Of a DNA stretch of 64,000 nucleotides, positions 47,691 through 64,000 are shown piece after piece; the first letter of the stretch is position 1; every line of letters begins with the position of its first letter. The position numbers were made by a program, and so were the translations under genes. This DNA comes from Alicyclobacillus sp. SP_1 (lineage in GTDB: Bacteria; Bacillota; Bacilli; Alicyclobacillales; Alicyclobacillaceae), in assembly GCF_024706985.1 (NCBI RefSeq), contig NZ_JAMCCX010000061.1, forward strand, positions 1 to 64,000, written 5' to 3'. The notes beneath the pieces were generated by a model. The model searched no databases. It was not told the DNA's origin and saw only the letters and a list, made by a program, of their open reading frames with translations.

Positions 47691-47939
47691 GTGCCGTGCT
47701 TCATCACATTTCGCACCATCAACATCAACGCACCGTCCCAAAACGCGGGTGCCTTTGTTGGAGAGGTGACCATTCCTGGATGGGATGCGAATAGTAAGTC
47801 GAACTACGGCCATGCTGCCATTCACGGATTCTCTAACTTTGAAGCCGCGACCGTCAATGTGACGATGGACGGGCAAGAATTTGTAGACAGCGCCATTGCG
47901 GACAGCGACTTCAAACCGGTTTGGGGCAAGAATCTATGA
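47691..47939 (+). CDS. GerPF-like (spore germination protein P family) small protein, copy 1
   Basis: 82 residues when started at GTG 47691. This start is chosen because residues 1-25 then align without a gap to the paralogues at 48482 and 48849, and all three have exactly 82 residues; an ATG at 47679 would add four. The pattern is P..I...(I/V)N(I/V)(N)xPxQNxGxFxGE, then GWDANSKSNYGHA, and FVDSAIADSDFKP. GerPA/GerPF proteins sit in the spore coat and affect passage of germinants (family knowledge). Membership is inferred from length, the NxG and W/DxxxK patterns and tandem organisation. Confidence 0.6.
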   Translation: MPCFITFRTININAPSQNAGAFVGEVTIPGWDANSKSNYGHAAIHGFSNFEAATVNVTMDGQEFVDSAIADSDFKPVWGKNL

Positions 47940-48439
47940 GCGACACCATTTTGAAGAGGCCGATTTATGTCTATGTTGGATCCATCTCTGACAACTCAGG
48001 GGTCTACATTTCCGAAAAAAACGTGGTGATGGGAGTGAGCAGTCACTCCAAATCCAACAGCGGCTTTGGTTCGATTGAGTCCAAAAACTTGGTTCACGGG
48101 AATGTCAGCATCGTCTACGATGGCGACTGGATTGACACGCCGATTGACGACAGAGACGTGAAAATATACCAAGAGGTTTACCAAACACCTGCGCCAAAGA
48201 TTTCTCAGGTGGCATTTGACAGCATTAACGTGGCGACCATTTCTCAAAATTCCGGGGTGTTTGTGGGAGACGTTGCGATTACGGGAATAGACGGTCACTC
48301 GAAAGAGAACAGTGCCCAGGGAAGCACGGATGGTCATCAGAATATTGAGATGAAGAATTTTAATTACGTGTACGATCCCGATTTCATAGACACGCCCATT
48401 CAAGATGGGGACGTGAAACTGTCGATGCGCCGCTCCTAA
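47936..48439 (+). CDS. Two-domain GerPF-like protein, copies 2 and 3
   Basis: 167 residues containing the same domain twice in tandem: residues about 8-75 (YVGSISDNSGVYISEKNV, SSHSKSNSGFGS, WIDTPIDDRDVK) and about 92-165 (FDSINVATISQNSGVFVGD, GHSKENSAQGS, FIDTPIQDGDVK). The ATG overlaps the stop of the previous gene by 4 bases. The conserved DTPIxDxDVK end differs from the single-domain copies, which end in DQDFKP. A tandem fusion of this domain is unusual. Confidence 0.6.
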   Translation: MSDTILKRPIYVYVGSISDNSGVYISEKNVVMGVSSHSKSNSGFGSIESKNLVHGNVSIVYDGDWIDTPIDDRDVKIYQEVYQTPAPKISQVAFDSINVATISQNSGVFVGDVAITGIDGHSKENSAQGSTDGHQNIEMKNFNYVYDPDFIDTPIQDGDVKLSMRRS

Positions 48440-50383: not shown

Positions 50384-50520
50384 GAGCTGAGTAGTAGACG
50401 AGATATAGAAATCGAGATCTTCCGTGAAGTGCAGACGATAGTTCGCTCCATTGGGAGCGCTGCTCTGCGGACTTGTTCTCGAAGCGAATTCAAAATCTCA
50501 AGACTCATGGAGGGGTAAAG

Positions 50521-52308
50521 GTGAAGGTAACGTCAAAGTTAGGTATGGCAGGAATGACAGCGATGGCTGGCATTGCCATGATGGGCGCAGGGAGCTTTGC
50601 GCTGTTCACAGCGCACGCAGCGTCAAAGACGCAGTCGTTTGCGTCGGGTGTGGTCGATATTGCGATAAATCACCCAGGGTTTGCGACTTTTTCGGACAAT
50701 CATCCCATTGAGTATTACAACATGGTACCAGGGGATTACGCCACCGGATCGGCCGTTATTCGCAACACCGGAACGGTCAATGAAATTATTGACGTCGATA
50801 CCATGGCGAAGGGCCCAATTTTCTTGAACGATGGATTGAATAACGGGACCTTTCAGCAGGCGCATGGGTCGTCCAGTGCGGCTTTGGAGAAGCTTTCTCC
50901 AGTCGCTTCGACTGCGACCAGTACTTATAGCGGCTACTGGCATCCTGACCTGATGACCGCCTCAAAAGCTCATGACGGAGACGGGTGGCTGTCTTACGAC
51001 TATGCAGCGACAGGAAACAATGTGAAGTATGAAACAGACAATCACCCAGCCTTTTACAACGTAAACTATGCCATCTACTCAAGCCAGTCGCAGCCCGTTG
51101 TAACGGAGGATGCGAACGGCGAGCTGACCATTACGGGCGGGGTTGCGCCAACGCATGTCGTACCGAATACGCCTGCGGTTACGTTTAGTTATTACCAAGA
51201 TGCGACGTATGGAGCTTCTGGTCATCCGAGTGGTAAATCGACCACAACGTGGAGCGGAGGGACGCTCGGGGCCTATGCGCCAGGCACTTCGACATTGTGG
51301 AATGCTGGAACGAATACGCCCGGTATTGACGTGAACGGAAACTCAAAAATCAAAGGTATTGTCCTTGCACCCGGCCAGTACTTGGTGGTGACCTACAGCG
51401 GACAGCTGCCACTCAAGGCCAGCAATGATTACCAAGATGCGTGGGGGAAACTGCAAGTTTCCTTTGATGCCGCACAGTATGAAAACAATCACGGTGGTCA
51501 CGAAAGTCCCGTGGATATCAACAGTCCGAACAACAATTTACCAACTCCAACGCCGCCTCCGGCTACCACGCCGAAGTTGACGTTCACTAGTGCCGTTCCG
51601 CAAGGTGGGTATCAGCAGGGGAAATCGTATGAAATTCAGGGAATTTTGACCGATGCAGGCCAGGGAGTCGGTGGTCAGCAGATTCATATCGATGCGTCGG
51701 TAGGAAGTCCGACTTCGTCTCAAGTGACGTCCAATCCCAATGGGGATTTTCAGTTCCTGTGGACGGCACCCGATACGTCGGGGAATGTGACCTTTACCGC
51801 TTCCGGAGATGGCGCGACGGGTACGCTTGCCGGTGCCATAGCGCATGTGAACCAGCCTACCGTGTCGGGAGTATACTTCTTTAACAACGAGAATGATCCG
51901 ACCATCCTCGTCCTCGGTAGTGGGTTTGGGACCCACGCTCTCTACAGCGGTGACGGATATCATCTTGGGTTTCAAGATTTGCCGTCTTACTGGAACGAAT
52001 CGGGTTACGGTTGGATGATGGGGGATTCAAATAACGGTAAAATTGACTACGACCGGAATGATTTGCCAAATTACATTGGCGTAAACGTCGAAAAATGGAC
52101 CAATACCGTGGTGGAGTTTACTCCGTCCACCTCGGTGAAAGATACGTCGCCATTGTATGGCTCTGGAGAATTCTTCATCCAGCCGGGAAGCCCGTATCAC
52201 CTAGGGATAGAAAATCCTCAGTCTACTCAATACCATATTTTCACGGGGAATGTAACGTATCTGCCGCTTTCCGATCTTGATAACTACTTGCCGGGCGGCC
52301 AGAACTAG
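50521..52308 (+). CDS. TasA/camelysin-like secreted protein with C-terminal Ig-like domains
   Basis: 595 residues from GTG 50521, 5 bases after GGAGGGG. Residues 1-32 are a signal peptide ending near TAHAAS. The N-terminal half has the TasA/CalY (M73) pattern: SFASGVVDI, FSDNHPIEYYNMVPGDYATGSAVIRNTGTVNEIIDV, and later VLAPGQYLVVTYSGQLPL. A Pro/Thr linker (PTPTPPPATTP) leads to an Ig-like/bacterial adhesin type repeat (GQGVGGQQIHIDAS, TSNPNGDFQFLWTAP, GNVTFTASG) and a last domain of about 140 residues rich in Tyr and Asn. TasA forms biofilm fibres; the added domains are unlike the short Bacillus proteins. No sipW-like signal peptidase gene is adjacent. Confidence 0.72.
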   Translation: MKVTSKLGMAGMTAMAGIAMMGAGSFALFTAHAASKTQSFASGVVDIAINHPGFATFSDNHPIEYYNMVPGDYATGSAVIRNTGTVNEIIDVDTMAKGPIFLNDGLNNGTFQQAHGSSSAALEKLSPVASTATSTYSGYWHPDLMTASKAHDGDGWLSYDYAATGNNVKYETDNHPAFYNVNYAIYSSQSQPVVTEDANGELTITGGVAPTHVVPNTPAVTFSYYQDATYGASGHPSGKSTTTWSGGTLGAYAPGTSTLWNAGTNTPGIDVNGNSKIKGIVLAPGQYLVVTYSGQLPLKASNDYQDAWGKLQVSFDAAQYENNHGGHESPVDINSPNNNLPTPTPPPATTPKLTFTSAVPQGGYQQGKSYEIQGILTDAGQGVGGQQIHIDASVGSPTSSQVTSNPNGDFQFLWTAPDTSGNVTFTASGDGATGTLAGAIAHVNQPTVSGVYFFNNENDPTILVLGSGFGTHALYSGDGYHLGFQDLPSYWNESGYGWMMGDSNNGKIDYDRNDLPNYIGVNVEKWTNTVVEFTPSTSVKDTSPLYGSGEFFIQPGSPYHLGIENPQSTQYHIFTGNVTYLPLSDLDNYLPGGQN

Positions 52309-52472: not shown

Positions 52473-54125
52473 TTACGCCTTTTGGAGCGTCAGCATTAGA
52501 GAACTGCCGTTCCACTGCAAATTGATGTGCAAGTCAGCCATGACTTGTTGGAGTTGGTTAAAAGCTACGTAAGTGGTGTTCTTACCACTGTACCAATCGG
52601 TTGCGACCAGCTTGGGAACGGAGGCGACCGTCTTTCCATTCACCTGGACCATCGCCATCGAACTGCCAGTGGACATCGGCATATTGCTGCTCGACGCCAT
52701 CGTCATGTTGCCCGGAATGGTCAAATTGAGCGCCATGCCGTTCCACATGCTGTGGATGCCCAGTTGTTTGAGAGCCTGCTGGATGTAATACAGCGGAACC
52801 ACGGATTTCATTTGATGGGTCAGACTATCCGTCGCCGTCCAGTAGGGAAATCCTGAGATAGGCAAGCCGCCCGCGTACAAAAAACCACCTGTCTTCTTCT
52901 GCCAAGCGCCATAGGTTGGCTGGTAGCTGAGTTCGTTCACCGTGTTCGTGTTGTCGTCCGTGTAGTACACCACCAGGTTTCCAGCCGAGTCGGTTGTCGC
53001 CGTCACGCCAAACAGGGCAGAACCCGCGCCAGTCTTCGGATTGACGGGGGTCTTATCGAGCACTACCTGCCCCACCACATGGGCTGACGGCTTGTTTCCA
53101 GACCAGTCGACGCGAAGTTGCACGAGATGATTGTTCCCCTGGTTGACCACTAGGAGGTTGCCGTTGACCGGATCGACCGTCAATCCTGCGGGCTGTTTCA
53201 GAGCCCCCCCTTGATAGACCAGTTGACCTTTACCTTGGTTCGGCGTATTGGCTCCGTACCACTGATAAGCGTAAATGGCATTGTCCGCCGTATCCGCCAC
53301 GTACAGTGTGTGCGACATAGCGTCCCACGCCATGCCCTGCGGGCCTTGGATGTTGTTGGCGTTGGTACCCATGGTCGGCAGTCCGCTACCAATGACGAGG
53401 AATTTGGTCGTTGTGTCAAAATGCGGCGGGGAGAATCCGTACATCGCAGCTACCGTGCCGTTTTCGGCCCCTGTGACGAAGAAAGTGGGTGGAACTTTGA
53501 CCCCGCTCGACGTGGCGTACGGCGCAGCAAATGCCTGCCCCCAGGGGCCCTTGACGGCGCTGTTGACAATCGTTCCGGCCGACCCAAACGAGGCTCCGTT
53601 TGGCTTGGTAACCTGCACGTTTCCATCGGTGCCGTCCTTGCCAAAGTTGGCAATCCAGAGTGGTCCGAGGGGCGAGAAGGCCATTGCAGCGGGTCCCATA
53701 GCTGTCGTTGTGAAAGGCACCGGTTTGCCATTGACAATGCGAACAATGGTCGATCCCGCTCCATTCACCCCGGCCTTGTTCGAAAAGTCGGAGACGAACA
53801 CTTGTCCGAAGAACTTGGAACCTTTGACCATGTTCACCGTCACCGCATACGGATTGTTGTCTCCGTTGGCAGACACCGTACTCGAGAGGACTTTGTTCAC
53901 GTTCAAGTTGGCTATGTCCCCAACCGGGTGCAGGGCCATCATCGCCATCGAATGAGCAGACATCCCCGAGGCAGTCGACGTGCTGCTGGATTGACTTGTC
54001 GAAGCAGTTCCGCTGTTTTGCATACTGCTACCGGAGTTCGTCGACGCTAGTGCGACTTGTGTGCTGATGCCAGCCACAGATGCGGCGGCGACGGCGATGG
54101 ACGTCCATTTGCGTGCTCTACTCAA
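52473..54125 (-). CDS. Secreted NHL/beta-propeller protein with C-terminal paired WNG domain
   Basis: About 550 residues. An N-terminal signal peptide (SIAVAAASVAGISTQVALAS) is followed by a Ser/Thr/Met-rich linker, then a six-bladed propeller-like region with NHL-type strands (GPAAMAFSPLGPLWIANFG, GPQGMAWDAMSHTLYVADTADNAIYAY, QPAGLTVDPVNGNLLVVNQGNNHLVQL). The C-terminus has two motifs of the copper-amine-oxidase-N-like type: VPLYYIQQALKQLGIHSMWNG and FNQLQQVMADLHINLQWNG. TTG 54125 is about 8 bases after GGGAG; GTG 54134 is an alternative. One of four such proteins in the window. Function unknown; surface location likely. Confidence 0.72.
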   Translation of the reverse strand: MSRARKWTSIAVAAASVAGISTQVALASTNSGSSMQNSGTASTSQSSSTSTASGMSAHSMAMMALHPVGDIANLNVNKVLSSTVSANGDNNPYAVTVNMVKGSKFFGQVFVSDFSNKAGVNGAGSTIVRIVNGKPVPFTTTAMGPAAMAFSPLGPLWIANFGKDGTDGNVQVTKPNGASFGSAGTIVNSAVKGPWGQAFAAPYATSSGVKVPPTFFVTGAENGTVAAMYGFSPPHFDTTTKFLVIGSGLPTMGTNANNIQGPQGMAWDAMSHTLYVADTADNAIYAYQWYGANTPNQGKGQLVYQGGALKQPAGLTVDPVNGNLLVVNQGNNHLVQLRVDWSGNKPSAHVVGQVVLDKTPVNPKTGAGSALFGVTATTDSAGNLVVYYTDDNTNTVNELSYQPTYGAWQKKTGGFLYAGGLPISGFPYWTATDSLTHQMKSVVPLYYIQQALKQLGIHSMWNGMALNLTIPGNMTMASSSNMPMSTGSSMAMVQVNGKTVASVPKLVATDWYSGKNTTYVAFNQLQQVMADLHINLQWNGSSLMLTLQKA

Positions 54126-54248
54126 CCCAACCACTCCCGAGATATGTTGTTTTCTCTATCACTCTAGAAAACGCACTAAGTGGGCAGACGGTTTTCGGAG
54201 TTTCCAAAGCGTGCGTCGCGGCTGTTATGGGGAACATGGGCTTGCTCG

Positions 54249-55349
54249 TCAGTTGAGTTCATTCCCGAACACAAAAGTGGCTTCGATGTGCTGCCAGATG
54301 CTCGCATCGCGCTTCGCGAGCCGAAGCGGCACGGTGAAGGTCAAGGATTCGTTCCAAGAGAGGGTGGTGTATTGAAGAACATATCTCAAGGCAGTGTGCT
54401 TGATTTCGCGCTCCGAAGTCGTCACGACATATTTTCTATCGGCGATTCTCGTGTGAATGTACCGATAGCCCGGTTTTGTTCGCAACGACCGATTAAATGC
54501 CTGTATCTCCTCTGCCATTTCAATGAAAGAAATTCCTTGCCCAATTCCGATGGTGTCGTTCGAATTTCCACTTGCCACTAGGCTTGGAGTGGCCAGGTCA
54601 GACTCGTTCGAAATCCCCAGGTCTGGTACCTCTAGTGCGGACCGATTCGGTGCAAACATCCGACCGCCGCCATTTGTCGCGCCTGGTCCTTCCAACCAGG
54701 TGGCAGGGTACTGCACGGTGTAGTTATAGAGCTGATTGTGATAGACATCGTAGGTTAGACCGTTTGAGTGAACAGGAACATTCAACCAAAGGGTGTTGTC
54801 ATTGCCATTCCACGAACAGGACAGCCCGCGGGTGCGAGCCAATGCTTGTTGAAGGTAGTAGGTTGGCATGAAGGTCGTTTCGGCGCCACCAAAACCGATG
54901 TTGGGTGAGACGATACGCGGCGCGTAGTAGACCGTGACACCGTCGTAGCGAATGGCCATGCGCGACTTACTAGTAGACTCTGCTGCGGCGAGACTGCTAA
55001 GCGGCACACTGCCGAGTCCCAGACCTTGCGGCGGCCCAATGCCCCAAGTATGCGTCTGCCCGTTCCACGCGGCACTCCAACCAGCGCGGTGGAGAAGCGA
55101 GTCGACCGAGAAGAGCGGGATCCAACTCGTGAAATGGTGCGACCAGGGGTCCTTGCCAATCCTGCCCTCGACGCGTTCGACAACGCGGCCGTTGAGGGCG
55201 ATGCGAACGGGTATCGGGCGAAGCGAAGGGGTTATCGTGATTTTGGCTGCAGAGGCGGTGTTGGTCGCGACAGCGAGCGTGACGGCTGCTGGCAGGGTTG
55301 CGAGAACACAGACGAACGCCATGCGACCCAGGTGGCTTTTGGGCTGCAA
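54249..55349 (-). CDS. Secreted protein with paired WNG domain and PsbP-like C-terminus
   Basis: 366 residues from TTG 55349, which follows AAGGAGGT by 6 bases. Signal peptide near residues 10-35 (AFVCVLATLPAAVTLAVATN). Two repeated motifs follow: IPLFSVDSLLHRAGWSAAWNG and MPTYYLQQALARTRGLSCSWNG. The C-terminal part, YNYTVQYPATWLEGPG then GRMFAPNRSALEV, resembles the start of PsbP/DUF1795-like folds. It is transcribed in the same direction as the propeller gene, 124 bases upstream of it. Function is unknown; the shared domain suggests a common surface role. Confidence 0.7.
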   Translation of the reverse strand: MQPKSHLGRMAFVCVLATLPAAVTLAVATNTASAAKITITPSLRPIPVRIALNGRVVERVEGRIGKDPWSHHFTSWIPLFSVDSLLHRAGWSAAWNGQTHTWGIGPPQGLGLGSVPLSSLAAAESTSKSRMAIRYDGVTVYYAPRIVSPNIGFGGAETTFMPTYYLQQALARTRGLSCSWNGNDNTLWLNVPVHSNGLTYDVYHNQLYNYTVQYPATWLEGPGATNGGGRMFAPNRSALEVPDLGISNESDLATPSLVASGNSNDTIGIGQGISFIEMAEEIQAFNRSLRTKPGYRYIHTRIADRKYVVTTSEREIKHTALRYVLQYTTLSWNESLTFTVPLRLAKRDASIWQHIEATFVFGNELN

Positions 55350-55606
55350 AGAGCAGACCTCCTTGCGTTGGAATGACACGTCAGTATTCTGCGGCGTTCT
55401 TGATGTCGATACTTTTGTGCAATTTAGATGCTGGGTTGTTGCTAACTCGCTTCTATTGTCTCTCTGGACGACGGCGAACGCAACGAGCCGCGCATGGCAA
55501 GCGTGGGCGGTGTTGTGAGACGTATCACGTGCGTGGGGAGAAGTGAAAGTGGGATGCTGTGGCGCATGCGGGATCTGTCAAGCGCTGGCCACAGACCCCG
55601 CCGCAG

Positions 55607-55798
55607 TCATACGTTGAGAATTCCCAAGACGAGCAGTATCACGCCTACCACAATGACGAAAACGACGCCAAAGCGAATCATCGCCTTGCTTGCATCTCCA
55701 TCTTCGGTTTTGGGAAGAGGTCTCTCGACGTTGACGTCGACCTGGTTTTCGGCGTTTTGGGTGTCTTGATACATATCTGTATCCTCTTTCTCGTTCAT
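55607..55798 (-). CDS. Small single-pass membrane protein, 63 aa
   Basis: ATG 55798 follows GAGGGA by 5 bases. The first 40 residues are hydrophilic and acidic (MNEKEDTDMYQDTQNAENQV) and the last 22 form one membrane helix (FGVVFVIVVGVILLVLGILNV), so the N-terminus is probably cytoplasmic. No family recognised. The reading frame extends upstream to 55900, but that part overlaps a perfect dyad (GAATGGAG-3-CTCCATTC at 55861-55879) and looks like leader. Confidence 0.65.
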   Translation of the reverse strand: MNEKEDTDMYQDTQNAENQVDVNVERPLPKTEDGDASKAMIRFGVVFVIVVGVILLVLGILNV

Positions 55799-55860
55799 GA
55801 TGTTCCCTCGCGGGGAATGTCGCCTCCTGGTTGCAGGTGGCTCCTCAGGTGAAACGGCCT

Positions 55861-55879
55861 GAATGGAGGTGCTCCATTC
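55861..55879. repeat. Perfect dyad in the leader of the small membrane protein gene
   Basis: GAATGGAG-GTG-CTCCATTC, 8+3+8. It may be an operator or an RNA hairpin 63 bases before the ATG. The remainder of the gap to 56377 shows only the 14-bp repeat at 56320-56352 and a TTGACA at 56164 without a good -10. Confidence 0.5.
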
Positions 55880-56319
55880 GCGCTTCCATCCCGGAGACAT
55901 CTGTCGACTGCGTCCGAAACATCCCCATCATAGCACCGGAAATCCACCGTTGGTACTGGCAATTGATGAACGGAAATGAAATTTCAATGGAGATCATCGA
56001 TGGATGCCGTGGATAAAACTCTGACCTCCATGCGAGCCATGACGAGAAAAGAGCACGCGCCTCCGCGAAACGGAAGGCTTCTTTGTCATTCCAGCTTCGA
56101 TTTTGCAAACGTATACGGAGCGCATGGAGAAAATGCACAGAATGGGCTCCGCGCTGGCTTGCTTTGACAGTGCGGAGTCTATACCATAGTAGGTACAGCA
56201 TGTGAGAGTTTACATAGTGTGTGGCTGTTTCCGTTGCTGGTCTACGGCGAACAGTCCTCGCAGTCCTAACGGTATCATTCTCCCATTTATGGGTCATGTA
56301 TTCGTTTGAGCCGTCGGAG

Positions 56320-56352
56320 AAGGTACAATCTATTAGTAAAGGTACAATCTAT
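56320..56352. repeat. 14-bp direct repeat upstream of the Met-rich secreted protein gene
   Basis: AAGGTACAATCTAT occurs at 56320-56333 and 56339-56352, 19 bp apart. Each copy contains TACAAT, a near -10 hexamer, but neither has a clear -35. Confidence 0.6.
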
Positions 56353-56377
56353 GAAAATGAGAAGGAGGAAACAGTAG

Positions 56378-57742
56378 ATGGCGATGAACTGGAAGTCTCC
56401 GTGGAAAAAAGTCGGTGCTGGTGCACTGGCGATGATGATGGTCGGCGCGTTCACACCGGCGACTGCATTTGCTGCGACCAACTCCTCGTCCACTTCGATG
56501 TCTCCCTACATGGTGACATCTGTCGGGGTGAATGGGAAGGTGGTCGAATCCATGCCAGTCTGGATGAAGTCAGGCATGACCAAGTTGCCGCTCTGGTATG
56601 TGATGCGAGCGCTTCATCAGGCGGGTATCATGAGCAGTTGGAATGGCATGGCATGGAAAATTACCACACCGAAGTCGATGACGATCCGTCCGGTCATGCT
56701 GTCTTCTTCTTCCGGGAAAGCAGAAATTTATATCAACGGGAAGTCGATTGGTATGGTTGAGTCGACGGTCGCGAAAGATCCATTCTCCGGCCACATGACC
56801 ACTTTCCTCCCACAGTCGGTTGTGACGCAGGTTTTGGCGGCAATCGGCGTGGACAATGGTATGAAAAATGGCATGTGGTGGCTGAAGACGATGGAAAAGT
56901 CTACGACAACAAGCACCACCACTTCGACCAGCACAACCTTGGCAACTGTGGCAACGATTGATGCGAACAAAACGGGTCAGACCTTGCAGGGGGCGCCAGG
57001 TGCGATGTCGAAATCGGATGAGGCGACCTTTGTCCTCACTGCGCTCACAGCCAATGGCAAGCCAGCTGCTAACGAGCCTGTCCATGTCTTTATTGGGCCG
57101 ATGAAGCCGCTGAGTGGGATTCCACCCAAAGACTGGTATGAGTCCGGTAGCAAAGGGGCCTCTGCGTACGTCGCCAGCCTGAGTAAAATGACCAATGCCA
57201 AGGGTCAAGCCACGCTCGTGCTCTATGGAGAGCCAGCTGATTCGATGGATATGGTCGGGGTTCAAATTGGCAATCTCAGTACGTACAATCCCACGGCGAT
57301 GAAAGCGATGGGTGCATTGGATGCTTGGTGGACGTCCACGACCTCTAAGCCAACGGCTCCTATCGGAGACTACGTCAAGGTTTGGCCATTCGCCACCACG
57401 GTGGATTCTTCTTCGAAAATCAACTATACCATCGAAGTGGAGAGTCCCTCGGGTCCAGTCAAGGGTGCACATGTCGCTATCGGATCGATGATGATGGGTA
57501 AGTCTAGCATGGGCATGGGCACGATGAACGGCTCCAGCATGTCTTCGACGAGTTCCATGAATTCGATGATGAGTGGTAAGATGACCACGTTGACCACGAA
57601 CTCCAAAGGGATGGCGATGTCCACGGTTCAGGTGCCAAAAGGGGCCAAGATGTTGCCGGTCCGAGTGGTGGTTACGCAACCGACCAACTCGTCGCGCATT
57701 ACTGGTGGCATGAATTTACTCTGGCTGGCAGGGATGAACTGA
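56378..57742 (+). CDS. Secreted Met-rich protein with N-terminal paired WNG domain
   Basis: 454 residues. Signal peptide 1-33 ([18 protein letters not shown]). Two WNG-type motifs: [21 protein letters not shown] and [23 protein letters not shown] Thr/Ser linker precedes an Ig-like region ([26 protein letters not shown]). Residues about 369-403 are very Met-rich (about one third Met with Gly and Ser), reminiscent of Cu(I)-binding Met motifs in copper-handling proteins. AAGGAGG is 9 bases before ATG. A copper-related or redox role at the surface is a hypothesis only. rmlB follows after 130 bases. Confidence 0.72.
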
Positions 57743-57769
57743 GCATCCGAAACTACTTTGGCTTGACGT

Positions 57770-57793
57770 GGGAGCGCATGGTGATGCGCTCCC
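57770..57793 (+). terminator. Hairpin terminator after the Met-rich protein gene
   Basis: GGGAGCGCAT and ATGCGCTCCC form a perfect 10-bp stem with a 4-base loop; the T-tract (ATTGTATGTCTATT) is weak. Confidence 0.55.
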
Positions 57794-57872
57794 ATTGTAT
57801 GTCTATTCGCACATGCCTGGCAGTGGATGGGCTGACGATGAGATGAGGGACATGAGGGAAGGAGAAACCTGT

Positions 57873-58889
57873 GTGCGCGTGCTCGTAACTGGCGGTGCCG
57901 GCTTTATCGGTAGTAATTTTATACTCTACTATTTGAATGCTTTTAAAGAGCACAGCGTGCTCAATGTGGATGCGTTGACCTATGCGGGCCATCTCGACAA
58001 TTTGCAAGAAATCACCAGCACAACGACTGGGTCGGGTATGGCTTCTCGCTATGAATTTGAGCAAGCCGATATCTGTGACGGCGTTGCCATGGACCGAATC
58101 TTCGCGCGAGGCATTGACGCGGTCGTGCATTTTGCGGCAGAGTCGCATGTTGACCGCAGCATTGTGCAACCGGACGCATTCGTGCGGACTAACGTACTTG
58201 GTACGCAAATTCTGTTGGATGCGGCGCGTCGCCATGGGGTACAAAAGTTTGTGCATGTGTCGACGGACGAAGTCTATGGGTCGCTTGGAGCTACAGGCTA
58301 CTTTACCGAGGAAACGCCGCTCGCGCCAAACAGTCCTTATTCGGCCAGTAAAGCTGGGTCGGATTTGCTCGTTCGCGCTTACTACGAGACGTATGGACTT
58401 CCAGTGAACATCACGCGCTGTTCCAACAACTACGGACCGTACCAGTTTCCGGAGAAACTCATCCCGCGAATGATTCTTCAGGCTCTCGCGGACCAGCCGC
58501 TGCCTGTCTATGGAGATGGCTTAAATGTCCGCGACTGGCTCCATGTATCTGACCACGCACGCGCTGTCGCCCTCGTCCTTCACCGCGGTCAGCCTGGCGA
58601 AGTCTACAATATTGGCGGGCACAACGAGCGGACGAATCTGGAGATTGTCCGGACGATTTTGCAGGAACTCGGCAAACCAGAGTCCTTGATTGAGTTTGTC
58701 ACCGACCGCCTCGGCCACGACCGTCGCTACGCCATCGACCCGGCGAAGATAGAGCGAGAATTAGGCTGGAAGCCCGCCTATACGTTTGACACCGGAATTC
58801 ACGAGACCATTCACTGGTATCTCAATCACCGGGAGTGGTGTCGTGCGGTGGAGTCGAAGCTCTCGGAAAGCGAGGGGGAGGCGCCATGA
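57873..58889 (+). CDS. rmlB: dTDP-glucose 4,6-dehydratase
   Basis: 338 residues from GTG 57873, 8 bases after GGAAGGAG. Extended SDR with [55 protein letters not shown], and [20 protein letters not shown] (catalytic Tyr/Lys), ending in the RmlB-typical [17 protein letters not shown]. It converts dTDP-glucose to the 4-keto-6-deoxy sugar. The frame upstream to 57768 runs through the hairpin and is not used. It overlaps rmlD by 4 bases. Confidence 0.93.
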
Positions 58890-59848
58890 CTACTGCCACT
58901 GATGGCACTGATGGAACGTCACACAGTGTTGTACCTGTCCGCCCCGAAGGGAAACCGTTGCGACTGCTCATCACAGGTGCCAGCGGACAACTCGGCCATC
59001 ACCTCAAGTTGCTCGCCGTGGCCGCCGGTCATACCGTGCTGGCGACGGATCGAACCAAGCTCGACTTCACGAACTTCTCAGACGTACGCGAGGTTCTCGG
59101 CAGTTTTCGTCCGGATGCTGTCATTCATGCGGGGGCGTATACGCAGGTCGATCTCGCTGAGTCCAACGCGACCGAAGCGTTCCGCGTCAATGCCTATGGT
59201 AGCCGCAATTTGGCGGTGGTGGCAGAAGAGTTGTCCGCTAAAATGTGCTATCTGAGCACGGATTACGTCTTCGCCGGAGACGCGGGGGAGCCTTACCCGG
59301 AACACGCCAGTCCGCAGCCGCGAACGGTCTACGGGCAGTCCAAGCGTGCGGGAGAAGAACTCGTTCTCGCCTGCACGCGCCGCGCGTTTGTTGTGCGCAC
59401 ATCGTGGGTATACGGCTTGGTGGGTAGCAACTTTGTGCGAACGATGCTGCGCTTGGGGCAGGAGGCCAAAGAGAAGAGAGACGCGGGAGAGGATGCACAC
59501 AGGCCGTTGCGCGTGGTGGCCGACCAGTTTGGCAGCCCGACCTACACGGGTCACTTGGCGGCCTTTCTGCTCCAACTTATCGGCACGGAATTGTACGGGG
59601 TCTACCATGCGACCAACCAGGGCGTATGCACGTGGTACGATTTTGCCGCTGCTATTTTCGAGATGGCGAAGTTGGATGTGACTGTCGAACCGTGCACCAC
59701 GGAAGAGTTTCCTCGGCCAGCACCCCGACCGAGGTATTCCGCACTCTCCCCAATGGCCATGATGGCCAACGGATTTTCGCCGTTGCCCACATGGCGCGAA
59801 GGGCTCCGTGATTGGTTTGAACAAGTCAGTCCGCTTGGTTTGGCATAA
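58886..59848 (+). CDS. rmlD: dTDP-4-dehydrorhamnose reductase
   Basis: 320 residues; last step to dTDP-L-rhamnose. Motifs are [62 protein letters not shown] (catalytic Tyr/Lys) and VRTSWVYG. An extra 30 residues, Thr/Asp/Ser-rich, precede the first strand. GGGGGAGG lies 4 bases before ATG 58886, which overlaps the rmlB stop. Its 3' end overlaps the oppositely transcribed oligopeptidase gene by 23 bases, so no terminator fits between them. Confidence 0.92.
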
Positions 59849-61925
59849 GGTGGTCGAGCAAAAACGCGTAGCGCGCGGCCAACTCGCGCAACCGCTGATA
59901 GCGCCCGGACGAACCAAAGTGGCCAGCTCCCATGTGCGTCTTAAGCAACAGCTCATGGGAGTCTGTTTTCTTCTCACGCAGGCGGGCCACCCACTTCGCC
60001 GGCTCCCAGTATGAGACGCGTGGGTCGTTTAGACCGGCGGTCACAAGGAGCGGCGGGTAGTCGCGTGCAGCCACATTGTCGTATGGGCTGTACGACTTCA
60101 TGTAGGCATAAAACTCCGCGTCGTTCGGGTTCCCCCATTCATCCCACTCGAGTGTGGTCAGGGGCAGTGTTTCGTCGACCATGGTGGTCACCACATCGAC
60201 AAAGGGCACGTCCGCTACGGCCGCACCAAACAACTCTGGGGCCATGTTCAAGACGGCACCCATCAGTAGTCCGCCAGCACTTCCTCCGTTGATGCCAAGC
60301 TGCTTCGGCGTGGTGTAGTGGTGTTCAATCAAATGTTTGGCTGCCGCGATGAAATCGGTGAACGTATTTCGCTTTGTCAAGAATTTTCCATCCAAATACC
60401 ATGAGTATCCCATTTCCGATCCGCCGCGTATCTGCGCAATCACATAAATAACGCCGCGTTCGAGCAGGGGAAGCCGGGTCGAAGAAAAGGTTGGGTCCAT
60501 ATTCGCACCGTACGACCCGTAGCCGTAGAGAATGAGCGGCGCGGGGCCGTTTTGAAGCGCGTCTTTGTGGTAAACCACGGCGAGTGGAACTTTCGTGCCG
60601 TCTTCTGCTGTGGCGTATTGCCGCTCTTGGCGAAAATCGGTCGGCTTGTATTCGCCGCCGGGTACGGGGGTCTGGTGCAGTACGGTTCGCTCCGTCGCCG
60701 ATGGACGCGACCACTGTATCGAATAGGTTGTGCGCGGGGTGAGCAGCGATTCGTACTGCAGCAATACCTCGTCTGTCTCGTAGCTGAGATTTCCATGGGC
60801 ACGTACTGTGTACAGAGGTTCGTCCCATTCCATCTGTGTCAGCCGTCCGTCTTGGTACCTCCAGACCTGGGTCAAGCCCATCTCCCGGCCAATCACGATA
60901 AGCCCGCTCGCAAAAGGAAGGACACCTTGCAAATAGCGCTTCTCATCATAAGGAAACAGTTCGGTCGCAGCAGTCAGCGACGGATGACTCACCGGACATG
61001 CGAGCAGTCGAAAGTTGGTGGCTTTTTCGTTGGTCAGTACAACAAACTGGTCTTCCCAATGTTCCACCTCATACAGAACGCCCGTGCGCCGCGCACTGAA
61101 AACCGTCCACTCCCCGAGCGGATGGTCTGTCCGCAGAAAGCGAGTCTCATTCGTCGCTTTGTTGTTGCTTTGTATTAGGAGATATTGGCCGGATCTCGAT
61201 TTGTAAAACTCAATCGAATACGTGGTGTCCGACTCTTCATAGACGAGCGCGTCCTCTGCACAGGAACTGCCAAGTCGATGGCGCCACAGCCGATACGGCC
61301 GCTGACTCTCATCGACCGTCACATAGAATAGATGTTGACCCGTTGCATCCCACTCCAAGCTGCCGTGCAAAAAAACATTGGGTATGGAGTCTTCGAGCAG
61401 TTGCCCACTCTGCAAGTCTTTCACTTTGGCAGTATAGCGATCCGTTCCGTCGCGATTTTCGAGATATGCCAATTGTTTCGCGTCTGGAGAATAGCGCAGG
61501 AGCGTCACGCTCAGATAGCCGTCTTCGGATACCAGCGTGTTTAAGTCCAGTGTGACTTCTTCTGAAGCCTGTTCTAGCTGTTCTCGGTTGGACGCGCGTT
61601 TGCGTGCGTAGATGGTATACTGCTTCCCCTCTTCGGTGCGGGAGTAGTAGTAATACTCTCCGTCCTGAGCGGCAACGTCTGTCTCGGCTGCAGGCGTTCG
61701 CAAAAACATGTCTTGATAGAGTGTTTCGGTCAAGGTAGCGCGTGTCTGCATTTGCTGCTCGTAGTATTGATTCTCTGCTTCGAGATAAGCGATAACCTCT
61801 GCATTGTTCCGGTCCTTCAGCCAATAATAGTCGTCCTCGCGGACGTCTCCGTGAAGCGTGTGGGGGTGAGGGGTGCGTTTGGCTACGGGAGGAGTCAGCA
61901 GTCCGGTCTGAGGATTGGTTGTCAA
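59826..61925 (-). CDS. ptrB: Oligopeptidase B / prolyl oligopeptidase family serine peptidase (S9A)
   Basis: 699 residues, the normal length for oligopeptidase B, which cleaves peptides after Arg or Lys in the cytosol. The N-terminus has PHTLHGDVREDDYYWLKDRNN, then a seven-bladed propeller, and the C-terminal hydrolase domain with catalytic Ser in GINGGSAGGLLMGAV, Asp in AGLNDPRVSYWEPAKW and His in MGAGHFGSSGRY. TTG 61925 is 8 bases after AGGAGG; an ATG in another frame lies within the spacer and is not used. It separates rmlBD from rmlC. Confidence 0.9.
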   Translation of the reverse strand: MTTNPQTGLLTPPVAKRTPHPHTLHGDVREDDYYWLKDRNNAEVIAYLEAENQYYEQQMQTRATLTETLYQDMFLRTPAAETDVAAQDGEYYYYSRTEEGKQYTIYARKRASNREQLEQASEEVTLDLNTLVSEDGYLSVTLLRYSPDAKQLAYLENRDGTDRYTAKVKDLQSGQLLEDSIPNVFLHGSLEWDATGQHLFYVTVDESQRPYRLWRHRLGSSCAEDALVYEESDTTYSIEFYKSRSGQYLLIQSNNKATNETRFLRTDHPLGEWTVFSARRTGVLYEVEHWEDQFVVLTNEKATNFRLLACPVSHPSLTAATELFPYDEKRYLQGVLPFASGLIVIGREMGLTQVWRYQDGRLTQMEWDEPLYTVRAHGNLSYETDEVLLQYESLLTPRTTYSIQWSRPSATERTVLHQTPVPGGEYKPTDFRQERQYATAEDGTKVPLAVVYHKDALQNGPAPLILYGYGSYGANMDPTFSSTRLPLLERGVIYVIAQIRGGSEMGYSWYLDGKFLTKRNTFTDFIAAAKHLIEHHYTTPKQLGINGGSAGGLLMGAVLNMAPELFGAAVADVPFVDVVTTMVDETLPLTTLEWDEWGNPNDAEFYAYMKSYSPYDNVAARDYPPLLVTAGLNDPRVSYWEPAKWVARLREKKTDSHELLLKTHMGAGHFGSSGRYQRLRELAARYAFLLDHLMPNQAD

Positions 61926-62077
61926 CAGTCATGCCTCCTATGTATCGTGCGAGTGGAATACCACCCTTTCAGTGTACCTTATTTTTGTCTCTTTCGCGTC
62001 TCGAAGGAGCGGGTTTCGGCAGGAAACAAACGGGCCGTCGAGAATCCTGATTAAGAGAGCATAAAGGAGGACCTTCG

Positions 62078-62617
62078 TTGAAAGTCGTCAATCAGAAATT
62101 CGACGGTGTTATGTTGCTGGAGCCGGAGGTACACGGGGACCATCGTGGGTTCTTTTTGGAGAGTTACCATGCCGACGAATGGCGAAAAATTGGCATTTCC
62201 AATGAGTTTGTTCAAGACAACCACTCGTTTTCCGCGCAACCTGGAACGCTTCGCGGACTGCACTATCAATTGTCTCCGTACGCTCAGGGAAAATTGGTGC
62301 GCGTGACGGCTGGAGCGGTCTATGACGTGGTCGTGGACATTCGAAAGCAGTCGCCGACGTTTGGGCAGTGGGCCGGATTTTTGCTGACGGCTGCAAATTA
62401 TCGGCAGTTGTGGGTTCCGCGCGGGTTTGCCCATGGATTTTGCACGGTGGTTCCAGATACAGAAGTTCAGTACAAAGTAGACCAGTACTATTCGCCCATT
62501 CACGACCGCGGCATTCTTTGGAATGATGAAGCGCTCGGCATTATTTGGCCATTTTCAGACCCTGTTTTGTCGGAGAAAGACCAACGTCACCCTGTGTTAG
62601 CTAAGGCTGAATTATGA
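62078..62617 (+). CDS. rmlC: dTDP-4-dehydrorhamnose 3,5-epimerase
   Basis: 179-residue cupin: FDGVMLLEPEVHGDHRGFFLESY, FVQDNHSFSAQPGTLRGLHYQL (catalytic His), GAVYDVVVDIRKQSPTFGQW, WVPRGFAHGFCTV and YYSPIHDRGILWNDEALGI. It epimerises the 4-keto sugar before RmlD. TTG start after AAAGGAGG by 7 bases. It lies divergently from the oligopeptidase gene and upstream of another paired-WNG protein. Confidence 0.92.
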   Translation: MKVVNQKFDGVMLLEPEVHGDHRGFFLESYHADEWRKIGISNEFVQDNHSFSAQPGTLRGLHYQLSPYAQGKLVRVTAGAVYDVVVDIRKQSPTFGQWAGFLLTAANYRQLWVPRGFAHGFCTVVPDTEVQYKVDQYYSPIHDRGILWNDEALGIIWPFSDPVLSEKDQRHPVLAKAEL

Positions 62618-62778
62618 TTCATCAGTCGTCCAGTTTTCAGGGGTGAAATCGGTGGATATGGTCTCATAGGGTGTCGCCGTTTGGCCCAAGTGCTGCGCTT
62701 ATGCCCTCGCTTCCGCAGAAACAACTTCCTATAAATACCTTGCTTGAAAAACTTTACGAAGCGCATGTCGCGCTGCTT

Positions 62779-62787
62779 TGCTATCAT
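62779..62787 (+). promoter_or_regulatory. Extended -10 promoter of the last secreted protein gene
   Basis: TGC-TATCAT (TGn plus a 5/6 -10 hexamer), about 39 bases before the ATG. No clear -35. Confidence 0.4.
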
Positions 62788-62825
62788 CTCTATTAAGAAC
62801 ACCCCAATCAGAGGAGGCAAATTAA

Positions 62826-64000
62826 ATGAAGAAGGCAGTGTTTGCAGCAGGTGCAGCCGTAGCCATGACGCTCGGCATGAGCGTTCCGACCGTCATGGCG
62901 GCTACTCCGGCTAAATCGTCCGCCAGTGTTTCGCATGTGGCCATGGTCAATGGCTGGAAGGTGGTGTTTCCGCGCGACGTGATGGTCGATGGCAAGCCAG
63001 CCATGCCCGTTTGGTATGCGATTGAAGCCCTTCACGATGCTGGTTTTGTTTCTCAGTGGAACAAAGGCTCGTGGGATATCACTACCACTGGCAAGGTCAG
63101 CACAGATGCCGGACTTGCGAAATCAGGCGCAGTTGATGTGGTCGTCAACGGATCGTCCATCGGATACATGCCAGGTTCTGTCCATGTCGATCCGTTCTCG
63201 CACAAACCGACACTCTACGTATCGGTAGCGGACATCGGAAAAGTTGCGCAGGCGATTGGTTTGACTTCCAACTGGAAGTCTGGCGAGTGGAGCGCCGTAG
63301 GTCCGAAGGTTGCGGCGCTAGGACAGGCGATGACAAACACAGTGAAATCGCCTGCGTATCAGATGAGTGGCACATCCAATCTCACATTGTCCGTAGTTCG
63401 CGCCGCTGGGGGTTCGGCAAAGCTGTCGACGCACGCGGTTCAAGTGCCGTTGGTGATGCACATGGTCGAATCGCTGATGGGTGAGGTCGGCATAGTGGAC
63501 GGCATGCGTGCAGAGCGGATGACCGAAACGATGACGTCTTCTTCACTGATGGCGAGTGGTAAAGCGATGACCATCACCGCAGAGCAGTACGTGATTGGCT
63601 CTCATCTGTACATGAAACTGGTGGGGCCAGGACAGAGTGGTAAGTGGCAGACGGTTCCGCTCAATGCATCATTGAGTCAACTGCTGCAATCTCCTGCGTC
63701 GAGTGTGCCGCTTTCTTTGTCACTGCTTCGCGACATCACGGTATCGACGTCAGGAAAAGCGACTGTTTATCATGCTGCGCTCAATTCCAAAGGTTTGACG
63801 AACTACATTGAAGAGTTGGAGAGTTCGCTCCAGTCGTCCATGCCTTCGTCTTCCGTGTCCCCCAAAGAACTTGCTTCCGTACTTGGCGTGTTGCTTCATG
63901 AGATTCATGCAAGCACGACGATGACGGTGGAGAATATTGGAGGGGAGCCGCGCCTCCATGCCGAGACGGCTCATGTCGATTTGACCATCGATGCGAAAGA
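62826..64000 (+). CDS. Secreted protein with paired WNG domain (3' end outside window)
   Basis: Open from ATG 62826 to the window end, at least 391 residues. GAGGAGG lies 8 bases upstream. Signal peptide MKKAVFAAGAAVAMTLGMSV then VMAA. Two repeated motifs: MPVWYAIEALHDAGFVSQWN and LYVSVADIGKVAQAIGLTSNW, both followed by W.(I/V). The region after residue about 170 (NTVKSPAYQMSGTSNLTLSV, LMASGKAMTITAEQYVIGSHLYMKLVGPGQ) resembles LppX/DUF6612-type lipid- or ligand-binding domains in the run of short strands. Fourth member of the paired-WNG family here; function unknown. Confidence 0.72.
   Translation, partial: MKKAVFAAGAAVAMTLGMSVPTVMAATPAKSSASVSHVAMVNGWKVVFPRDVMVDGKPAMPVWYAIEALHDAGFVSQWNKGSWDITTTGKVSTDAGLAKSGAVDVVVNGSSIGYMPGSVHVDPFSHKPTLYVSVADIGKVAQAIGLTSNWKSGEWSAVGPKVAALGQAMTNTVKSPAYQMSGTSNLTLSVVRAAGGSAKLSTHAVQVPLVMHMVESLMGEVGIVDGMRAERMTETMTSSSLMASGKAMTITAEQYVIGSHLYMKLVGPGQSGKWQTVPLNASLSQLLQSPASSVPLSLSLLRDITVSTSGKATVYHAALNSKGLTNYIEELESSLQSSMPSSSVSPKELASVLGVLLHEIHASTTMTVENIGGEPRLHAETAHVDLTIDAK

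Follow-up and report, generated by a model that had tools for sequence, protein, structure and literature searches.

The analysed window spans 64,000 nucleotides of a contig of Alicyclobacillus sp. SP_1, and its last part holds four open reading frames (ORFs), each of which opens with a signal-like hydrophobic stretch, as read from the sequence, and carries a tandem pair of units of about 60 residues (Table 1). An earlier note on this DNA had described four secreted proteins with two copies each of a shared motif. We examined the eight copies with hidden Markov models (HMMs) built from three of the proteins and searched against the fourth, using 200 shuffles per protein as the control, and both copies were recovered in every protein at 18.8 to 44.1 bits versus 5.4 bits or less in the shuffles, which bore out this description. 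When copies were compared one against another, pairwise scores reached z 17, and some pairs fell near z 0-1. The motif itself was upheld in part: the W preceding NG is retained in seven of the eight copies, but the W/Y-Y helix start is kept in only four (PLYY, PTYY, PLWY, and PVWY), the other four reading AFNQ, PLFS, PQSV, and SVAD.

Table 1. Module proteins and module units in the window (positions of the window; bits are scores of held-out HMMs)
Feature	Position	Strand	Description
Protein 1	52473..54134	-	Secreted; NHL/SGL propeller, then C-terminal module pair
Unit 1a	52710..52877	-	First hairpin diverged; 2.7e-24 (training copy); 34.6 bits
Unit 1b	52479..52664	-	Very C-terminus of protein 1; 3.1e-27 (training copy); 37.2 bits
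Protein 2	54249..55379	-	Secreted; N-terminal module pair, then region earlier dubbed PsbP-like (without database support)
Unit 2a	55026..55214	-	31.7 bits
Unit 2b	54771..54965	-	19.8 bits
Protein 3	56378..57742	+	Secreted; N-terminal module pair, then Met-rich domain with module-less homologues
Unit 3a	56507..56674	+	44.1 bits; AlphaFold2 model
Unit 3b	56711..56899	+	41.0 bits; AlphaFold2 model
Protein 4	62826..64000 (ORF continues to contig position 64175)	+	Secreted; 449 aa; N-terminal module pair, then region earlier dubbed LppX-like (without database support)
Unit 4a	62931..63095	+	18.8 bits
Unit 4b	63123..63308	+	27.0 bits

The partners that had been assigned to these pairs fared differently. 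The propeller of protein 1 was confirmed by NHL (4.1e-6) and SGL (1.3e-6) matches, both above the Pfam cut-off, and the methionine-rich part of protein 3 proved to be a genuine family with homologues, but the Ig-like assignment in the same protein received no Pfam call. The labels PsbP-like (protein 2) and LppX-like (protein 4) found no support in Pfam, NCBIfam, or PDB sequences and are unproven, the Pfam and NCBIfam scans of protein 4 covering all but its last 58 residues. Weak matches of proteins 3 and 4 to TcaA_3rd_4th (0.0094), gpW (0.058), and others in Pfam, and to gutA (0.0087) in NCBIfam, were taken as chance.

Located between the module genes are rmlD, rmlC, and an rmlB-like dehydratase gene, the name rmlB being an interpretation of a GDP_Man_Dehyd/Epimerase match. 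While the interleaving with rhamnose genes noted earlier is thus present, a link to the module was not supported, since tblastn with RmlB, RmlD, and RmlC found none of them in 158 module loci of relatives (1.17 Mb, a few kb on each side; the loci are partly dependent, as 38 of the 80 in one set share a centre with a locus of the other set). The same search also came back empty for 13 further own-genome loci, with all three returned from the window locus as the positive control, and the module-bearing relative of protein 3 in genome G009 has no rml neighbour, as judged from ORF starts with neighbours named by eye. The rhamnose genes thus seem to sit among the module genes by chance. Also beside the module genes, a large protein encoded at 50473-52308 has a camelysin-type N-terminus (PF12389, 1.2e-8). 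Elsewhere in the window, a small ORF at 47921-48439 shows by eye an apparent internal duplication with two NSGV...SHSK halves.

Extent, pairing, and placement of the module family

A profile built from the eight copies was run on genomes and revealed a large family with few matches beyond the Alicyclobacillus order. Its 37 copies at E<=0.1 (36 at E<=0.001) in the own genome lie in 18 proteins, so that a family of four was too small an estimate, and PF07833, the copper amine oxidase N-terminal domain, matches this genome once, within one of the 18. Among the own genome and 60 relatives, 52 of 61 genomes had matches, up to 74 in a single genome, and the six of these 61 that belong to the class but lie outside the order had none. 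In genus g4 of the own family (G004, G019, and G025), there were 0-2 matches per genome.

Wider samples were also searched, with at most 13 to 20 candidates scored per genome, such that copy counts from them are lower bounds. Eighteen of 200 genomes from the class matched. The own family, counting the own genome, accounts for 15 of these; outside it, G087 (1e-57) and G143 (1.5e-41) were clear, while G066 was weak and showed the canonical PxR on reading. Across 299 genomes of the phylum, the own genome alone matched. A scan of named genomes, which used patterns such as TTYMPIWY and is biased towards typical members, gave 127 confirmed stretches, and the best 80 of these collapsed into 78 loci, all from Alicyclobacillus, Alicyclobacillaceae, Sulfoacidibacillus, or metagenome-assembled genomes (MAGs) labelled Bacillota or Bacilli; when started from protein 3, the scan gave no match. 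Full-text literature searches, covering few subscription journals and judged by titles, abstract openings, and selected passages, listed no paper on the module in Alicyclobacillus.

The family is strongly paired. Exactly two copies were present in 103 of 112 module ORFs from the own genome and relatives, with four copies in 4, three in 2, and one in 3 ORFs, and among the 106 module ORFs whose start is intact, a crude test found a hydrophobic 12-mer there in 105. With ORF starts called mechanically, 85 of 113 pairs begin no more than 130 residues after the ORF start and 13 end within 20 residues of the C-terminus, one pair falling in both groups. The remaining 16 lie near neither end; in four cases this is the second pair of a protein with four copies, and for some of the others, start codons may have been set too early. 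By these counts, the pair is the form in which the module usually occurs.

Relation to PF07833 and predicted fold

The module had been called either related to or distinct from the copper amine oxidase N-terminal domain, and both terms apply: it is homologous by hhalign, yet different as a family. A profile of 76 variant pairs, drawn from 81 representatives of the 113, aligned with a profile of 20 canonical PF07833 pairs at P 97.0 and E 9.7e-11 over 110 columns, with both units in register, and its score of 62.8 compared with a mean of 11.8 and a maximum of 22.5 for 60 column-shuffled controls. Taken singly, 40 of the 76 pairs matched PF07833 at E<=0.01, the best at 8e-8. The window proteins as wholes gave no PF07833 match at E<=1 (curated cut-off, 24.2 bits), the protein 3 pair alone scored 16.8 bits, below this cut-off, and one other pair of the own genome reached 26.4 bits in the genome scan and 22.5 bits as a protein. 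Judged by these sequence comparisons, the module is related to the PF07833 copper-amine-oxidase N-terminal (stalk) domain but has diverged strongly from it.

The canonical pairs found in other Bacilli resemble the variant in having two units, each of strands, a helix, and two strands, within secreted multi-domain proteins, but they carry R and F/A where the Alicyclobacillus variant mostly has WY or YY. The helix start is accordingly P-I-W-Y in most of the family versus P-L-R-F in PF07833, W or Y replacing the R of PxR in 74 (unit 1) and 69 (unit 2) of 76 pairs; PxR is found at the helix start in none of the eight window copies, while the 20 canonical pairs mostly have R there in a rough motif scan. 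Four-residue spacing is seen along both helices (residues numbered as in the modelled pair), with W33 in 60 and Q37 in 45 of 76 pairs in unit 1, and W107, Q111, and R115 in 52, 56, and 49 of 76 in unit 2; in place of W and Q, the canonical consensus shows R and E. The variant is also poorer in charge (K+R, 6.2 versus 10.4%; D+E, 5.3 versus 8.9%) and richer in W and Y. The W-Q helix positions and the smaller number of charged residues may represent an adaptation to acid. Other Bacilli have large secreted proteins with a canonical-looking pair at their C-terminus (L269:4843-7194 and L270:3326-5668).

Structure prediction yielded a confident, compact pair with the same order of elements per unit as the canonical PF07833 model. 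The variant pair was modelled as one compact domain with a pLDDT of 93.6 and a pTM of 0.87 (canonical pair, 94.1 and 0.85), and DSSP assigned strands-helix-two strands to each unit of both models. The variant helices are 10 residues long versus 7 in the canonical model, and the strand ahead of the second unit is a loop in the variant, leaving one inter-unit strand fewer. In Foldseek, the canonical model retrieved copper amine oxidases from E 4.2e-6 (about 72 columns, mostly 1.2-1.3 A) and, as a weak match, 8IMD (E 0.15), while neither was listed for the variant model (best E 0.39), whose best VIA-align Z was 5.5; this missing match may reflect large divergence of the modelled fold, or it may stem solely from the limits of the search. 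Against solved structures, a 20-residue match of the eight-copy profile to L,D-transpeptidases (E 0.06) and the single match of the pair profile (E 0.48) were taken as chance.

In a tree of 119 rows and 144 columns, a long branch with support of 100/100 separated the 113 variant pairs from the canonical ones, of which 6 out of 20 were included; the midpoint root served for drawing only, many forks are unresolved, and the bootstrap had not settled. A recent tandem duplication of all four window proteins was not supported, since the tree places them in three parts. Proteins 3 and 4 fell into one weak group of 14 rows (80/81), among other proteins, and as they are the most alike pairwise of the four, these two may derive from a local duplication of greater age.

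Partner domains and a candidate role at the cell wall

Partners in the own genome include the propeller, two glucosaminidases, a GH18 protein, a YCF48/BNR-type repeat protein, Ig-like repeats under the Pfam cut-offs, and several proteins without a Pfam match, the scan covering 10 of the 14 module proteins outside the window. Among 76 of 94 module proteins scanned in relatives, we recorded PG_binding_1 (19), Glucosaminidase (16), PF07833 (15), PG_binding_3 (9), NLPC_P60, GH18, and Peptidase_C92 (5 each), SLH (4), CHAP and Peptidase_M14 (2 each), and others; these loci were picked by match score and include some orthologues, which means that the counts do not represent independent events, and the scan covered module proteins only. 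In many partners, no domain was recognised.

Looked at from the enzyme side, 18 of 29 glucosaminidases carry the module, namely, 2 of 2 in the own genome and 16 of 27 in 15 relatives (G001, 2/2; G002, 2/3; G004, 0/2; G005, 1/1; G014, 3/4; G019, 0/2; G020, 1/1; G025, 0/4; G026, 1/2; G029 to G034, 6/6). The 27 are matches over the cut-off, one weaker match being left out, and were paired with modules by hand through contig, strand, and length of the frame. Seven of the 11 enzymes that showed no module were read and gave none even at E<=10, while the other 4 rest on the class-sample search; in the 7, PG_binding_1 repeats precede the enzyme (5 cases), or Big_1 precedes and PG_binding_1 follows it (2 cases). 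Genus g4 contributed 0 of 8 glucosaminidases with a module, and the 6 that were read all have PG_binding_1. In the own genome, SLH (PF00395) gave no match at E<=0.001, and none of SLH, LysM, and PG_binding_1 was called on the window copies. Since 11 of the 27 relatives' enzymes showed no module and LysM is present (11 matches), the module is not the sole wall module, and module proteins can bear PG_binding_1 as well. The likeness to SLH, LysM, and PG_binding_1 would lie in exchangeable wall targeting.

This analysis established the homology, the pairing, the usual position, a distribution nearly restricted to the order, the wall-enzyme fusions, and the predicted fold, and we consider it likely that the paired module is one compact, diverged PF07833-type domain that serves as a non-covalent wall anchor for secreted proteins of the Alicyclobacillus order. 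The tandem units would fold into one compact domain, appended near one end of the secreted protein, and would hold the carrier non-covalently on the cell wall, as the fusions and the published OlpC precedent suggest. An excerpt of PMC4582956 credits Pinheiro et al. with binding of secondary cell wall polymers by the copper-amine-oxidase-like domain of OlpC, a result that concerns canonical PF07833 in a lineage other than that of the Alicyclobacillus variant, and a passage of PMC12811415 treats OlpC as cell-wall-attached. From excerpts, the surface-binding module of the cellulosome scaffoldins OlpC and ScaG is a PF07833-type domain on a secreted protein, with reported binding to secondary cell wall polymers (PMC4582956, PMC3413522), like ours by description but clostridial and with a cohesin partner, and cell wall hydrolases of Desulfotomaculum reducens contain PF07833 (PMC4137172). 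The ligand would most likely be peptidoglycan or a wall polysaccharide, the choice of polymer being a guess; a further guess is that contact might be made through the W/Y, Q, and R helix positions where present, and a binding role of W/Y-Y is doubtful for the window proteins, as only four of their eight copies keep it.

A passive stalk or spacer without a ligand would agree with the high diversity of the partners, with the loss of the W/Y-Y helix start in half of the window copies, and with the E. coli copper amine oxidase, whose homologous domain is called the stalk. It appears quite improbable given the conservation of W33, Y34, W48, and W53 (each kept in 60-75 of the 76 pairs) and of D94-P95 (71 and 68 of 75), the frequency of wall enzymes as partners, and the fact that a spacer has no need of pairing or of a position near an end. 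Sugar binding typically involves aromatic residues, the hosts are acidophiles, and one of them is named for iron oxidation, all of which would suit an adhesin-type module for an outside surface or substrate (minerals, or plant or microbial polysaccharide) rather than the own wall; such a role is highly improbable given the fusions to peptidoglycan hydrolases, enzymes that act on the wall.

The units could also pair between chains and dimerise the secreted proteins, as in the Paenibacillus lautus superoxide dismutase (PaSOD; 8IMD), in which each chain contributes one PF07833-type unit to the dimer contact (PMC10432803), and an excerpt of another paper terms PF07833 a dimerisation domain of flavinylated proteins. 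The two systems share PF07833-related units packed two together, but in 8IMD these sit on separate chains, unlike the exactly two units in 103 of 112 ORFs. This count and the compact pair model indicate that the unit-unit contact is probably satisfied inside one chain, and dimerisation is in our view improbable, although dimers between pairs may form. The simplest view would be that the tandem pair makes within one chain the contact that PaSOD makes between chains.

A bolder version of the wall-anchor proposal, which we hold to be rather unlikely, would have an acid-proof anchor arise from an old stalk or wall-binding fold. The charged R...E helix pair would have become W...Q (in unit 2 with R eight residues after W), creating an aromatic, charge-poor face for an order-specific wall polymer, and in copy-rich species, dozens of surface proteins would have acquired the domain, making it the order's SLH counterpart. 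Despite up to 74 profile matches per genome, the module almost entirely escapes Pfam and NCBIfam, and a name for it would allow many 'hypothetical' surface proteins in Alicyclobacillus and relatives to be annotated. It could serve as a surface-display tag in acid, and it raises the question of which wall polymer these bacteria use.

The methionine-rich part of protein 3 has a module-bearing homologue in G009 (62%) and module-less homologues in the own genome, G051, and G041 (48-49%). This cargo thus occurs with and without the module, which indicates that the module is an add-on and speaks for the anchor reading. The module-less homologue of the own genome (L263:6023-7012, G000:C105) has a lipobox-like VTGC, and the other two do not clearly have one; perhaps the module substitutes for a lipid anchor in one case. 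That a single one of the three resembles a lipoprotein weighs against the wall-anchor proposal. Protein 3 and the linker joining the two units of protein 1 contain methionine-rich stretches, possibly metal (copper) related, and another protein of the own genome (L039:6097-7665) has a linker similar to that of protein 1.
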